DNA from: Rhodobiaceae bacterium
GTDB taxonomy: Bacteria; Pseudomonadota; Alphaproteobacteria; Parvibaculales; Parvibaculaceae
DNA: 64,000 nt
Assembly (NCBI GenBank): GCA_003330885.1
Contig: CP030277.1
Location: 1,612,001-1,676,000, forward strand
Reading direction: 5' to 3'
In this document: piece by piece, positions 20,742 through 24,781 of the stretch
Layout of the letters: each line of letters starts with the position of its first letter
Numbering within the stretch: the first letter of the stretch is position 1
Notes under the pieces: generated by a model
Seen by the model: the letters and a program-made list of their open reading frames with translations, nothing else
Database searches by the model: none
Told to the model about the DNA's origin: nothing
Made by a program: the position numbers and the translations under genes

Positions 20742-20796
20742 AACCCCACACCCCCAAAATTTACATAAGTCATTGATTTAAAACAGTTTTTCAAAC

Positions 20797-20811
20797 TGGC
20801 CCAACCTTTGC
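20797..20811 (+). promoter_or_regulatory. Sigma-54 promoter of flagellin 1
   Basis: TGGCCCA-ACCT-TTGC: GG at 20798-20799, ten bases, GC at 20810-20811. The predicted start near 20823 leaves a leader of about 190 bases before the flagellin ATG. The flgE promoter has the same TGGCCCA...TTGCG form. Confidence 0.75.
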
Positions 20812-20860
20812 GATGTTCCTCCTGACGAAAGCCGGTGTTCTGCCGGTTTAGGAGGAAATC

Positions 20861-21022
20861 ATGATCCGTAGACGGAGCAAAAATTGGAGTGCTAGTGGCA
20901 AAGCCACCAGCGTATCAATTCGACACACTGTTTACCGGGCATTAATGATTAACTCCGAGTATACGCACCGTGCCGAAACGGGACAGTTCGGCAAAAGCCC
21001 GGAGGGTATAGACCATGTCTGA
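20861..21022 (+). CDS. 53-residue upstream reading frame in the flagellin 1 leader
   Basis: ATG at 20861 preceded by a near-perfect ribosome site (TAGGAGGAAATC-ATG, 20849-20863). The 53-residue product is basic (starts MIRRRSKNWSASGK, ends SPEGIDHV) with no membrane segment or known domain. Its TGA (20020 + 1000, i.e. 21020-21022) lies inside the flagellin start region: ATGTCTGA, an eight-base overlap in a different frame. Ribosomes ending here could re-initiate on flagellin or block its own GGAGGG site. It may be a regulatory leader peptide rather than a functional protein. FlbT is known to act on a flagellin leader in Caulobacter, so this RNA is a plausible target. Confidence 0.5.
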   Translation: MIRRRSKNWSASGKATSVSIRHTVYRALMINSEYTHRAETGQFGKSPEGIDHV

Positions 21023-22142
21023 TGTGGTTTTATCAGGAGCAATTCGCTCAAATCTGCTGAGTTTGCAGAATACAGCGAGCTTGCTGGCAACAACCAATGA
21101 GCGCCTCGCGACCGGTTTGAAGGTCAACAGCGCTATCGATGATCCGACCGCCTTTTTTACGGCTCGGAATCTAAACACACGTGCAGCCGATCTGACCAAC
21201 TTGTTGGATTCGATGGATCAGGCTGTGCAAACACTCAGAACAGCGGATGAGGGCATCGAAGCTCTTACCAAGCTGATCGAGACGGCAAAGGCCACCGCGA
21301 ACCAGGCACTTGATACACCAATCAACGCCTCCTTCGCCGAAGGGCCAAGAGATGCCGTCACAGATCAGACGCTGAATATGACAGCGGTTTTCGCATCTAT
21401 CGCTTCTACGGACCAGATCACTATCGCGTTTGACGGCGGGACAGCAGTCGCAATCACCGTCGGTGGCCAGACTGTTTCGAAATTCATCAGCTCCATCAAC
21501 GGACTGAGCGGAATTTCTGCAAGCATCACGTCAAATGGTTCGTTCCGAATTGAAGCGGACGATGGTTCAGATCTTGTCATCGCAAGTGGCGTTGGCTCTG
21601 TTGCAACAGATCTCGGCATCAACGGGACCTTCGACAACGGCCAGAACCGCACACAGTTTGAAGGTGACTTCAACGGTTTGCGGACGCAGATTGACGAACT
21701 GGCAGCGGATGCTTCCTATCAGGGCATCAACCTGCTAAGCGGCGATGATCTAACGGTGAACTTCAACGAGTCACAGACCAGTCAGCTGACGATCCAGGGT
21801 GTCACCCTCAATTCAGCAGGCTTGGGCGTAACCTCTGTGAACGCCGATGACTTTACCAACGATGCGACGATCAGATCGTTCATTGCAGAGTTGGACGGTG
21901 CGATCAGCACATTGCGGGCACAAGCTTCAACATTCGGTGCAAACTTGGGTGTTGTAGAGATCCGGCAGGGTTTCACCGACAATATGGTGAACACGTTGGA
22001 AACCGGTGCTGCAAAGCTGACGCTCGCAGATACAAACGAAGAAGGTGCAAATCTTCTGGCCTTGCAGACACGGCAATCCTTGGGCACCACTGCCCTCTCG
22101 ATCGCCGCGCAGGCTGAACAAAACGTACTGCAGCTCTTCTAA
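21015..22142 (+). CDS. Flagellin (copy 1)
   Basis: 375 residues. Filament subunit exported by the flagellar type III system. The conserved N-terminal D0/D1 helices (NLLSLQNTASLLATTNERLA, TGLKVNSAIDDPTAFFTARN) and C-terminal helices (NMVNTLETGAAKLTLADTNE, NLLALQTRQSLGTTALSIAA) frame a short central region of about 180 residues that includes a hook-IN-like beta segment. It lacks cysteine. GGAGGG at 21001 is the ribosome site. It is clearly diverged from copies 2 and 3 and is the only one with a recognisable sigma-54 promoter. A hairpin and flaF follow. Confidence 0.95.
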   Translation: MSDVVLSGAIRSNLLSLQNTASLLATTNERLATGLKVNSAIDDPTAFFTARNLNTRAADLTNLLDSMDQAVQTLRTADEGIEALTKLIETAKATANQALDTPINASFAEGPRDAVTDQTLNMTAVFASIASTDQITIAFDGGTAVAITVGGQTVSKFISSINGLSGISASITSNGSFRIEADDGSDLVIASGVGSVATDLGINGTFDNGQNRTQFEGDFNGLRTQIDELAADASYQGINLLSGDDLTVNFNESQTSQLTIQGVTLNSAGLGVTSVNADDFTNDATIRSFIAELDGAISTLRAQASTFGANLGVVEIRQGFTDNMVNTLETGAAKLTLADTNEEGANLLALQTRQSLGTTALSIAAQAEQNVLQLF

Positions 22143-22246: not shown

Positions 22247-22606
22247 ATGGCTTCTGCTCGCCAAATTTCAGCAGACACCCTACGCCAGCGTGAAGCTGAA
22301 TTTCTGATTGCTTCTGCGTCTCGCCTGGACAGCATCAAGTCTGGCCAACACGCCCAAACACAATTATCCGATGCGTTGACCGACAATCTCCATATCTGGA
22401 ACCTGATCGTCGACAAACTATTGTCCGAACCGGAATGCCAGTTTTCGGCTTCCCTGTGCCTTCAAACAACAGCGCTCGCAGCGACAGTCCTCCGCTATAC
22501 ACATGATGCGCTCGATAGCACCACACCCACAGCTGTGCATGTTCTGGTCAACTTGAATCGAGAACTTGCGGCTGAGTTTTGCGCAGAAAGCACTTTCGTA
22601 ACCTAA
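22247..22606 (+). CDS. flaF: FlaF-family flagellar regulator (divergent copy)
   Basis: 119 residues, all helical. FlaF promotes flagellin synthesis or secretion in Caulobacter, opposing FlbT. The FlaF pattern is visible but divergent: an N-terminal helix (LRQREAEFLIASASRLDSIK), a central NLHIWNLIVDKLLSEPECQF and a C-terminal LNRELAAEFCAES. It differs strongly from the second flaF at 26067. It begins 105 bases after flagellin 1 and may be co-transcribed with it. Confidence 0.75.
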   Translation: MASARQISADTLRQREAEFLIASASRLDSIKSGQHAQTQLSDALTDNLHIWNLIVDKLLSEPECQFSASLCLQTTALAATVLRYTHDALDSTTPTAVHVLVNLNRELAAEFCAESTFVT

Positions 22607-22882
22607 ACAAAGTGTCACGCACACCCTCCATTATTCAAAAATATTGGCAACACTTCGTTAGCGATACGCCCGCCCCTTCATCAGAAATTAGGGACAGTTT
22701 TCGCCGGAAACCAAGGTCTTTTCTACTCCGGCGCCTGGGAACAGAACTTACCCTCAACGAACCGTATCCAACCATCTCGAAAATTAGTTGCGCCCGTTTA
22801 CGCTAATTTTACCAACGGCGCCCATAGTGACGACAGCTCAGGATGAGCGTCGAAAGTTAGTTCCTAGGAAAGGAAAGTACCA
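22607..22882 (+). other. Leader region of flagellin 2
   Basis: This 276-base gap holds no convincing sigma-54 core (the best, AGG-N10-GCC at 22690-22704, matches poorly) and no ftr-like palindrome. Near its end a five-codon frame (ATG at 22842) stops with TAG before reaching flagellin 2. AGGAAAGGAAAG at 22867-22878 supplies the ribosome site. Confidence 0.5.
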
Positions 22883-24001
22883 ATGGGTGATATTGCTATC
22901 TCAAGCGCGGTTCGCGAGAACCTCTCTTCTCTGCAGAGCACTGCAGATCTTCTTTCACGTACAAATAATCGTCTGTCTACCGGTCTTAAAGTTTCGAGCC
23001 CGATCGACAATCCTACGTCGTTCTTTACGGCTCAGGGCCTGAACAACCGGGCAGCTGACCTTGGAACACTTCAGGACAATATTGGCTTGGCCGTTGAAAC
23101 GCTGAGCGCAGCTGCATCTGGTATCGACTCGCTGCAGACGCTTGTTGAGCAAGCCAAATCAACTGCAAACTCTGCGTTGAACACCAAAATCAAAGCAAAC
23201 GAGTTCACGTCTACGGCGTCTTTCACAGACCCAACGACAGCTCTCTCAGCATTTGCAAACGCTGCATCTACTGAAACCATCACAATCAACGTTGATGGCG
23301 CAACGACAACTATCACAGCGAAAGCTCTGACAGTTTCCAAGTTCGTCTCAGCAGTGAATGGTATCTCTGGTGTAACTGCCTCTCTCTCCGGTAGTTCTCT
23401 GAAGGTAGCAGGTACAAACGGTCGTGAAGTGACCATCGCAAGTGGTGTTGGCTCTTTGGGCGGTGACCTCGGTCTGACCGGCACATACGACAACGGTACA
23501 AACCGTGACAGCTTTGTTACAGACTACAACAACCTTCTGGACCAGATTGACCAGTTGGCTGCTGACGCAAGCTTCAACGGTGTGAACCTTCTTGACGGCA
23601 ACGATCTGACCGCGAAATTCAACGAAGACGGATCTTCTTCTTTGACGATTTCTGGGGTTACGTTTGATGCTGCTGGCCTTGGTCTGACAGACTCAACCAC
23701 GTCTGCTTTTGGTTCTGACGCAGGTATCAATTCCGTAGTCACGACCCTGGACTCCGCAACAAACAACCTGCGGACACAGTCTTCTACTTTCGGTAACAAC
23801 CTTGCCGTGGTGGAAAATCGCCAGAACTTCACAGATTCGCTGATCAGCGTTCTGGAACGTGGTGCTGGTGGGCTGACCCTCGCTGACACAAATGTTGAAG
23901 GGGCTAACTTGCTTGCCCTTCAGACACGTCAGTCTCTGGGTACAACTGCTCTGTCACTGTCTTCTCAGTCCGACCAGGCAGTTCTATCGTTCATTCGATA
24001 A
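22883..24001 (+). CDS. Flagellin (copy 2)
   Basis: 372 residues. N-terminal D0/D1 (SSAVRENLSSLQSTADLLSR, RLSTGLKVSSPIDNPTSFFT) and C-terminal D1/D0 (LAVVENRQNFTDSLISVLER, NLLALQTRQSLGTTALSLSS) are typical. The centre contains a hook-IN-like segment (ETITINVDGATTTITAKALT). It is nearly identical to copy 3, including 255 bases without a single difference. Codons end in T much more often than in neighbouring genes, as in highly expressed genes. A terminator follows. Confidence 0.96.
   Translation: MGDIAISSAVRENLSSLQSTADLLSRTNNRLSTGLKVSSPIDNPTSFFTAQGLNNRAADLGTLQDNIGLAVETLSAAASGIDSLQTLVEQAKSTANSALNTKIKANEFTSTASFTDPTTALSAFANAASTETITINVDGATTTITAKALTVSKFVSAVNGISGVTASLSGSSLKVAGTNGREVTIASGVGSLGGDLGLTGTYDNGTNRDSFVTDYNNLLDQIDQLAADASFNGVNLLDGNDLTAKFNEDGSSSLTISGVTFDAAGLGLTDSTTSAFGSDAGINSVVTTLDSATNNLRTQSSTFGNNLAVVENRQNFTDSLISVLERGAGGLTLADTNVEGANLLALQTRQSLGTTALSLSSQSDQAVLSFIR
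23141..23395 (+). repeat. Block identical in flagellins 2 and 3 (first copy)
   Basis: These 255 bases match 25032-25286 at every position by eye, silent sites included, whereas the flanks differ at many third codon positions. This patchiness points to recent gene conversion. Confidence 0.85.
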
Positions 24002-24027
24002 GTTCCTATCGACGACGACATCCGGAA

Positions 24028-24057
24028 AGGCGGGGGCTCAGGTCTCCGCCTTTTTCG
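24028..24057 (+). terminator. Terminator after flagellin 2
   Basis: Stem AAAGGCGG (24028-24035) and CCGCCTTT (24048-24055) followed by a T-run ending at 24057. It lies 27 bases after the flagellin stop. Confidence 0.85.
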
Positions 24058-24170
24058 ATTCTGACACCAGGTTTGCCGCCGGCAGCGAAAAACACATAAG
24101 ACACGTTCCTTCTTCCGCCAATCTCGCGTAGATTACGTCTGCAAGAAATGCTTCAGATACAGGAAATGTC

Positions 24171-24593
24171 ATGGCCCTCAAAGTTGAGCTCAAGCCCGGC
24201 GAACGTTTTATCCTCGGTGAAAGCGTGATCACGAACGACGATCAGCGCACTCGGCTATTTATTGAGGGAAGCGCGCCCATCCTGCGTGAAAAAGACGTCA
24301 TGCGGGTCGAAGATGCGACCAGCCCCTGCCAAAAAATCTACTTGCTTGTACAGATGATGTATCTCTCACCAGATCCCATCAAACATCACGACATGTATTT
24401 TACGGTCGTCAAAGAGGTTCAGGAGGCAGCGCCAAGCACCCTGCCTTATATCGACGCGGTGAACACGCAGATCCTGAACGGTGCCATGTACAAAGCGCTG
24501 AAAGCAGCAAAAAAGCTCATTCAATATGAAGCAGAACTGATTGCAGGCACGCTCGCCAGCGCGGCCGAAGAAGCTTCAGCGAACGAAAGTTAG
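24171..24593 (+). CDS. flbT: Flagellin post-transcriptional regulator FlbT
   Basis: 140 residues, the usual FlbT size. In Caulobacter FlbT binds the 5' leader of flagellin mRNA and destabilises it until the hook is finished. The signature is clear: ALKVELKPGERFILGESVIT, QRTRLFIEGSAPILREKDVM, PCQKIYLLVQMMYLSPDP and NGAMYKALKAAKKLIQYE. It has its own transcription unit between the terminator of flagellin 2 and the leader of flagellin 3. AGGAAATGTC precedes the ATG. Confidence 0.97.
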   Translation: MALKVELKPGERFILGESVITNDDQRTRLFIEGSAPILREKDVMRVEDATSPCQKIYLLVQMMYLSPDPIKHHDMYFTVVKEVQEAAPSTLPYIDAVNTQILNGAMYKALKAAKKLIQYEAELIAGTLASAAEEASANES

Positions 24594-24718
24594 CCGCGCC
24601 GTACATACTTTCTTAAGCAACTTACTTAAGCGACAAGTAACTCTAACCCAAAGTCCTACTGCCCAAACCGGCCCCAGGCTCTTCAAATTCAGATTCCTTT
24701 AACGCGCAAAGCGCGAGG

Positions 24719-24781
24719 ATGGCTCCAGCTCAGAACGAGCTAACGAGTAAATTCCTAGAAAGGGATATGAGTAATGGGTGA
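24719..24781 (+). CDS. Possible 20-residue upstream reading frame before flagellin 3
   Basis: ATG at 24719, ending with a TGA that overlaps the flagellin start in the sequence ATGGGTGA, exactly the overlap geometry seen before flagellin 1. The ribosome site is poor (GCGCGAGG directly abutting the ATG). The peptide (MAPAQNELTSKFLERDMSNG) has no known family. It may be chance; the repeated overlap is the reason to list it. Confidence 0.25.
   Translation: MAPAQNELTSKFLERDMSNG

Follow-up and report, generated by a model that had tools for sequence, protein, structure and literature searches.

Gene organisation at the flagellin locus

The window, the whole stretch of 64,000 nucleotides that was analysed, belongs to a genome of 3.86 Mb. 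Among the matches listed, the closest relatives with a name include Alpha proteobacterium Mf 1.05b.01 as well as Rhodobiaceae/Parvibaculaceae assemblies. It contains a flagellin cluster with three flagellin genes and the genes for FlaF and FlbT, and two TPR-rich proteins are encoded upstream of flagellin 1. The leader of flagellin 1 holds an upstream open reading frame (uORF) and several other elements, listed here with the neighbouring genes.

20797..20811, + strand: sigma-54-type promoter TGGCCC-N5-TTGC (exact pattern match)
20829..20849, + strand: 5'-end stem-loop adjoining the uORF ribosome site (fold and covariation)
20850..20855, + strand: Shine-Dalgarno (SD) sequence AGGAGG of the uORF (duplex energy -10.2 kcal/mol)
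20861..21022, + strand: uORF of 53 sense codons and a TGA, overlapping the flagellin 1 start (frame conservation, peptide drift)
20930..20962, + strand: conserved block GTTTAC-N5-ATTAA-N2-ATTAA-N5-AGTAT (pattern and model comparison across leaders)
20972..20992, + strand: possible GCCGAA/TTCGGC hairpin within the uORF, 3' of the block (compensation by eye in some g1 leaders)
20998..21006, + strand: flagellin 1 ribosome site GGAGGG in the self-complementary CCC-GGA-GGG (sequence, folds)
21015..22142, + strand: flagellin 1 gene (Pfam Flagellin_N and Flagellin_C)
22247..22606, + strand: FlaF gene (PF07309)
24171..24593, + strand: FlbT gene (PF07378)

The uORF begins with the ATG at 20861-20863, directly preceded by TAGGAGGAAATC (20849-20860), and ends with the TGA at 21020-21022, while the flagellin 1 ATG (21015-21017) lies within ATGTCTGA. 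On sequence, the ATG behind AGGAGG, the frame of 53 codons and the TGA within the flagellin 1 start are all as described in the initial annotation. The duplex energy between SD and anti-SD is -10.2 kcal/mol for the uORF and -9.7 for flagellin 1, and among the 2096 ATGs that the window has on its two strands, 14 reach a value of -10 or below.

The TGGCCC-N5-TTGC match is taken here to be a sigma-54-type promoter and, with the +1 position that we assume for this type, the transcript is predicted to start at about 20823 and to have a leader of about 190 nt. When one mismatch is allowed the pattern has 14 matches in the window, against 11.5 expected by chance; two are exact, the other one being located before an flgE-like gene. 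A sigma-54-like box fitting a looser pattern is found 189-235 nt 5' of flagellin 1 in 33 Parvibaculaceae leaders. Before the flagellin 1 promoter, TAAGTCATTGATT (20766-20778, + strand), and before the flgE promoter, TAAGCCATTGAAA (31480-31468, - strand), resemble what we assume to be the IHF consensus, and IHF-like letters are also seen 5' of the promoter in many relatives.

Conservation of the upstream frame

Relatives of flagellin 1 were found in 35 of the 40 family genomes, and leaders were measured in 33 Parvibaculaceae and in three members of another order. One further leader (G018, L043) was dropped because the flagellin start is missing: flagellin 1 lacks the part from the ribosome site to about codon 11 (about 1480-1501), either by deletion or by an assembly fault. 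G005 and G006, both in g1, have no flagellin 1 match; since G006 is reported as 100% complete, the filament genes have perhaps been lost.

A uORF that is unbroken to near the flagellin start is present in 12 of the 33 Parvibaculaceae leaders and occurs in four genus-level groups (G000-G004 in g1, G009 and G010 in g3, G038 and G039 in g5, and G030, G031 and G036 in a part of g4). The distance from its ATG to the conserved block is 69 nt in five leaders, 72 nt in two, 78 nt in one, 81 nt in two and 87 nt in two, all multiples of three. The SD energy is between -6.4 and -10.2 kcal/mol in 11 of the carriers and -5.1 in G036. The stop codon lies near the flagellin start in all 12 and begins at +5 (eight leaders), at +1 (one leader) or at -4 (three leaders). 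The +1 stop is an ATGA in G002, following a spacing change of 4 nt, and the -4 stop in G030, G031 and G036 consists of a TAA with one base before the ATG. The last uORF codons overlap the flagellin start in nine of the 12 carriers. The frame has a ribosome site and a start codon of its own, and its stop overlaps or adjoins the downstream start in every carrier, both of which are properties of a coupled leader ORF. Absence of such conservation in relatives was named at the outset as the result that would speak against the frame; the opposite was found, with start, ribosome site, frame and stop kept in 12 of 33 leaders.

The same picture emerges from a control scan in which the frame was not presupposed and every ATG, GTG or TTG with an SD energy of -6 or below between promoter and block was recorded in 36 leaders. 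An ATG of this kind is present in 11 carriers, and from each of the 11 the frame stays open through the block and in register with it; G010 additionally has an out-of-frame TTG that passes the scan. The other 24 leaders have seven starts distributed over six leaders, in frames 0, 1, 1, 2, 1, 2 and 1 relative to the block, and all seven frames stop at -121 to -65, before or inside the block, as unselected frames would. In G013 (L087) the frame from a related start is only 17 codons long, being cut off where seven A follow one another, with the later frame kept, which is either a real loss or an assembly error. The uORF is absent from 21 of the 33 Parvibaculaceae leaders and is therefore dispensable.

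The leaders of flagellin 2 and 3, in the window and in seven further loci, contain no similar uORF with a good ribosome site. They (22820-22882 and 24710-24773) have another motif in common, in which CAGCTCAGGATGAGC / CAGCTCAGAACGAGC form a small hairpin and the ribosome site behind it reads TTCCTAG(G)AAAGG; similar letters are found before a second flagellin in g4 genomes. At 24719-24781 an ATG frame of 20 codons has as its stop the TGA within the start of flagellin 3 (ATGGGTGA); its ribosome site is poor (-0.6), and the same 20 residues are present in G001 and G004.

Chance and ancestry

The initial annotation held that a ribosome site combined with an exact overlap is unlikely by chance. 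The overlap part of this argument is weaker than it looks. The TGA of the uORF arises from flagellin codons 2-3 (xCT GAx), and of the 21 Parvibaculaceae leaders that lack a uORF, 15 also have a stop at -4 or +5 in the frame of the block (14 at +5 and one at -4). The +5 stop is partly owed to the flagellin codons and to the block. The claim that the frame is not accidental is instead borne out by conservation in relatives. Five distinct lengths from ATG to block in one frame have a chance of about (1/3)^4, and the chance of meeting no stop is 0.30, 0.23, 0.21, 0.31 and 0.47 in five divergent representatives. By our own arithmetic the combined chance is about 3e-5, a value that assumes independence and is optimistic given the shared ancestry. 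The conservation of the uORF is evidently more than chance. An untranslated chance frame, made visible by a conserved block and by flagellin codons, is quite improbable: the block and the stretch downstream are indeed conserved as nucleotides also where there is no uORF, and the 15 leaders just mentioned have their stop in the same place, but such a frame would account neither for the ribosome site nor for the agreement of five lengths in frame, nor for the lack of stops in the divergent part.

The distribution of the uORF was compared with an rpoB tree of 26 genomes with midpoint root, from which the carriers G010, G031 and G039 are absent because they have no rpoB match; the label of G018 as having no uORF was set by eye. 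On this tree the uORF occurs in G000-G004 (g1), in G009 (g3), in G038 (g5) and, within g4, in G030 and G036, which form a clade of four with two further genomes, G013, where the uORF is broken, and G035, where it is absent. All 13 tree rows without a uORF belong to g4. The tree gives five changes for the uORF label and three for its absence. An ancestral uORF with several losses would be the simplest reading, short of proof as between gain and loss. The motif ATGnTCCGTA at the start of the frame is common to four of the five g1 carriers, the three g4 carriers and the broken G013, and these shared first bases favour a common ancestry of the uORF. Since the carriers span g1, g3, g5 and a subclade of g4, the frame would have lasted over family-level divergence.

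Drift of the encoded peptide

Before the block, pN and pS are close to each other in most pairs of leaders: 0.20/0.22 (L001-L005), 0.32/0.38 (L001-L007), 0.43/0.40 (L005-L007), 0.52/0.66 (L001-L006) and 0.09/0.07 (L022-L023). In two pairs pN is below pS, 0.18/0.35 (L024-L025) and 0.27/0.37 (L083-L086), so that a weak constraint on the peptide is possible. The substitutions before the block are distributed over the three codon positions as 6/4/4 (L001-L005), 9/7/8 (L083-L086), 6/6/7 (L024-L025) and 3/0/3 (L022-L023). In the block region there are no synonymous and nine non-synonymous changes between L001 and L007, which is the reverse of protein constraint, and none and 11 between L001 and L006, in part due to a 4-nt insertion. 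The corresponding numbers are 2.5 and 7.5 in L083-L086 and 1 and 0 in each of the close pairs L022-L023 and L024-L025. The block region is constrained on its nucleotides and not on the protein. The codon TTA, which occurs in the block, makes up four of the 317 leucine codons in seven local genes.

Lengths in multiples of three together with pN close to pS in most pairs show selection on the frame and not on the peptide, another property of a coupled leader ORF, and the conserved amino acid sequence that is characteristic of a functional leader peptide was not found. A functional small protein or a peptide that stalls ribosomes by its sequence is accordingly most improbable. Such a product could be suspected from the beginning M-x-R-[RK] in seven of the 12 peptides (G000, G001, G003, G004, G030, G031 and G036), from the block portion, which is VYxxLxINx[EQ]Y in all 12, and from the two pairs with pN below pS. 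The remaining pairs with similar pN and pS before the block speak against it, as do the changes in the block region (0 synonymous against 9 non-synonymous in L001-L007) and the fact that the block is equally conserved where it is untranslated. The suggestion that the leader peptide itself has a function is not upheld by these values, pN being close to or moderately below pS before the block, nor by the Pfam search, where the uORF peptide (P0001) has no match. What has been maintained is the start, the frame and the end, and not the product, which is the signature of a coupled leader ORF. Conserved uORFs without a conserved peptide escape searches made at the protein level.

The conserved block

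The 33-nt block crossed by the uORF is the strongest conserved element of the leader. This genome has one full copy, and a shorter version of the pattern, with one mismatch allowed, has additional matches on the opposite strand at this position and at C1:1685255-1685277. A block model built on sequence only has matches in 34 of the 40 family genomes, and the block is kept in the 21 Parvibaculaceae leaders that have no uORF. It lies 85 nt from the flagellin start in 28 of the 33 family leaders (86, 86, 88, 88 and 89 nt in the others), and anywhere between 101 and 150 nt from the promoter.

With up to one mismatch the pattern was found in only seven of 385 class genomes, with one copy each: G000, G001, G010 and G034 in the family, and G159, G262 and G347 in one other genus. 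The block model recovered six in the same 385 genomes, the same as the pattern except for G262. A reversed control pattern had three matches in these genomes; with a differently spaced pattern as a control for chance there were two two-mismatch matches and three reversed-pattern matches, and the two-mismatch matches of the block itself in G211 and G290 look like chance. A targeted search in the second order found the block in three of four, located 103-105 nt before the flagellin start (3 leaders) and with no uORF passing through it.

Direct reading of the block shows that ATTAA-N2-ATTAA puts a TAA in both other frames, and only the frame of the uORF passes. The block is partly dyad-symmetric in this genome (GTTTAC-N6-TTAA-N3-TTAA-N6-GTATAC, 20930-20964), and its reverse complement gives a weak model match at the same place.

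Because the distance to the flagellin start is nearly fixed while that to the promoter varies, we read the block as an element that would act at the level of RNA or translation, a role at the DNA level being possible. A 3' enhancer has reportedly been found for a Caulobacter flagellar promoter, and an operator or enhancer of this kind would fit the partial dyad symmetry and the weak score of the reverse complement. This explanation is not favoured: the spacing to the promoter is loose compared with that to the start, which is 85 nt for 28 of the 33 leaders; flgE, also in the window, has a sigma-54 promoter and a short leader in which the block is missing; and TTAA-N3-TTAA occurs once in the window.

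RNA structure of the leader

The 5' stem-loop next to the uORF ribosome site folds in G000 and in eight related leaders of g1, g3 and g5. It has seven pairs over eight distinct sequences, with 91.1% of the cells paired and three pairs changed on both sides. Its covariation is 0.423 compared with 0.267 in shuffled alignments, and none of 500 shuffles was as high, although few and related rows may exceed shuffles without any structure. The g4 carriers do not share this stem-loop and were left out of the pair count; G031 has no fold, G030 has another weak fold and G036 another hairpin of 4 bp.

Further downstream, the GCCGAA/TTCGGC hairpin is unsupported by the consensus fold of 28 leaders. In these 28 leaders RNAalifold gave only two invariant pairs for the block region and a negligible consensus fold, and a conserved RNA structure of the block was rejected, as the 106-nt block region in the window is no more stably folded than its shuffles (z -0.37). 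The complete leader, taken together with the first codons of flagellin, folds better than shuffles (z -3.21). Searches against known RNA families gave no match in the leader and a sub-threshold ar35 elsewhere, at 23942-24060.

The flagellin ribosome site is written ACCC-TGGA-GGGT in many relatives and is part of a short self-complementary stretch in most leaders. Its two C-G pairs in the consensus do not vary in any of the 28 leaders, which makes covariation uninformative either way. About 8 kcal/mol is needed to open the site in the carriers. In a coupled leader ORF of the re-initiation type, the downstream site would be expected to stay closed unless the uORF is translated. Carriers and non-carriers show no consistent difference in this respect over four context sizes, in rows that are related, and no special need to open the site emerges. 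The opening energies are 8.2 and 6.7 kcal/mol with 60 nt before and 18 nt after the start (12 and 21 leaders, p 0.026), 7.8 and 8.3 (12 and 20 leaders, p 0.47) and 8.1 and 8.3 (12 and 19 leaders, p 0.58) in longer contexts, and in one longer context the order is reversed, 7.7 and 9.0 (12 and 19 leaders, p 0.065). The GGA in a small hairpin at this ribosome site recalls what we take to be a CsrA site. Control through such a GGA loop was discarded with CsrA found in 0 of 1 for the own genome and in 3 of 14 control genomes.

A probable coupled leader ORF and its alternatives

The frame is probably a genuine leader ORF, translated and coupled to flagellin 1, and we infer both its translation and re-initiation on the flagellin. 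Coupling is the best supported explanation because selection on start, frame and stop combined with a drifting peptide is what it predicts. Three stop arrangements with one outcome would also be hard to explain without it. Ribosomes would load at the strong upstream site beside the 5' end of the sigma-54 transcript, traverse first the block and then the self-complementary stretch with the ribosome site of flagellin, and end translation on or beside the flagellin ATG, where they might restart on the flagellin or at least leave its start open. The uORF product would be a by-product, and the passage of ribosomes in the right frame would be what counts. The net effect is presumably that flagellin synthesis is raised or timed, but whether it amounts to a boost, timing or restraint cannot be read from the sequence. 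The conservation suggests that the act of translating the uORF is used by the cells to control flagellin production. Of the earlier idea of a leader peptide that couples or gates flagellin, the coupling or gating type of ORF is retained, with conservation in 12 of 33 leaders, and the functional peptide is not.

An unlikely alternative is gating, in which translation of the uORF would lower or time flagellin synthesis by ribosomes that cover the start or clear a regulator, FlbT or another, from the block. The overlap with the flagellin start in nine of the 12 carriers, the passage of the frame through the most conserved element and the presence of the FlbT and FlaF genes alongside are consistent with this, and according to the passages cited FlbT of Caulobacter binds the flagellin 5' UTR and represses translation (PMC3930126, PMC7591256). 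However, the block is kept in 21 leaders that have no uORF and so needs no ribosome. It is less likely still that the uORF is translated mainly to shield the 190-nt leader from Rho-dependent termination or RNases, with coupling as an incidental effect. The leader is long, with the promoter at 20797, and the 5' stem-loop is of the kind known to stabilise mRNAs. Nevertheless, protection needs no stop near the flagellin start, where three arrangements keep one, and leaders without a uORF are of similar length (promoter at 189-235 nt compared with 217-233 nt in carriers).

Coupling might also be one half of a two-part switch, which we put forward tentatively as a possible though doubtful extension. 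The block, as a nucleotide element specific to flagellin leaders at an almost constant 85 nt from the start codon, would be the site of a trans-acting factor, for example FlbT with a flagellin, the ribosomes on the uORF would displace this factor and reach the flagellin start, and the block would double as a filter for the frame. A leader with a block and a coupled ORF that is present or absent by genus offers a natural comparison.

Comparison with known systems

A flagellin uORF in alphaproteobacteria was not found described in a search of the open-access literature by title and the beginning of the abstract. Four known systems come nearest to it. In Sinorhizobium, peTrpL is described as an attenuator leader peptide (PMC10117765), and it resembles the uORF in being a short ORF in an alphaproteobacterial 5' leader. 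Unlike attenuator leader peptides, the uORF shows no evident run of regulatory codons in its translation, and its peptide drifts. The CsrA-FliW system acts post-transcriptionally on flagellin mRNA (PMC4894983) and is similar in this kind of flagellin control.

The Caulobacter system with FlbT and FljJ shares with it a flagellin leader and FlbT and FlaF genes in the same cluster (PMC3930126, PMC7591256). There, too, proteins with TPR are found beside the flagellins, FlmG having a TPR domain. In the passages cited, binding of FlbT to the flagellin 5' UTR represses flagellin translation, and the mechanism by which FlbT times it to hook assembly was called unknown in a review of 2014 (PMC3930126). 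A uORF is not mentioned in those passages. FlbT is encoded at this locus (PF07378) and is a reasonable candidate for the trans-acting factor because it acts on flagellin leaders in Caulobacter. The block in its present form would not be a general FlbT site, since it is found with up to one mismatch in only seven of 385 class genomes.

The closest parallel is with leader ORFs whose ribosomes re-initiate on the following gene and so increase its translation; for these a survey gives a distance peak at 10-11 bp (PMC4833913). The uORF shares with them the short length, a ribosome site of its own, a stop near the next start and a peptide that is unimportant. It differs from them by overlapping the flagellin start or ending 1 nt before it, by its position in a sigma-54 flagellin leader and by traversing a separately conserved block of 33 nt. 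The uORF of flagellin 1 would be a variant of these re-initiation leaders.
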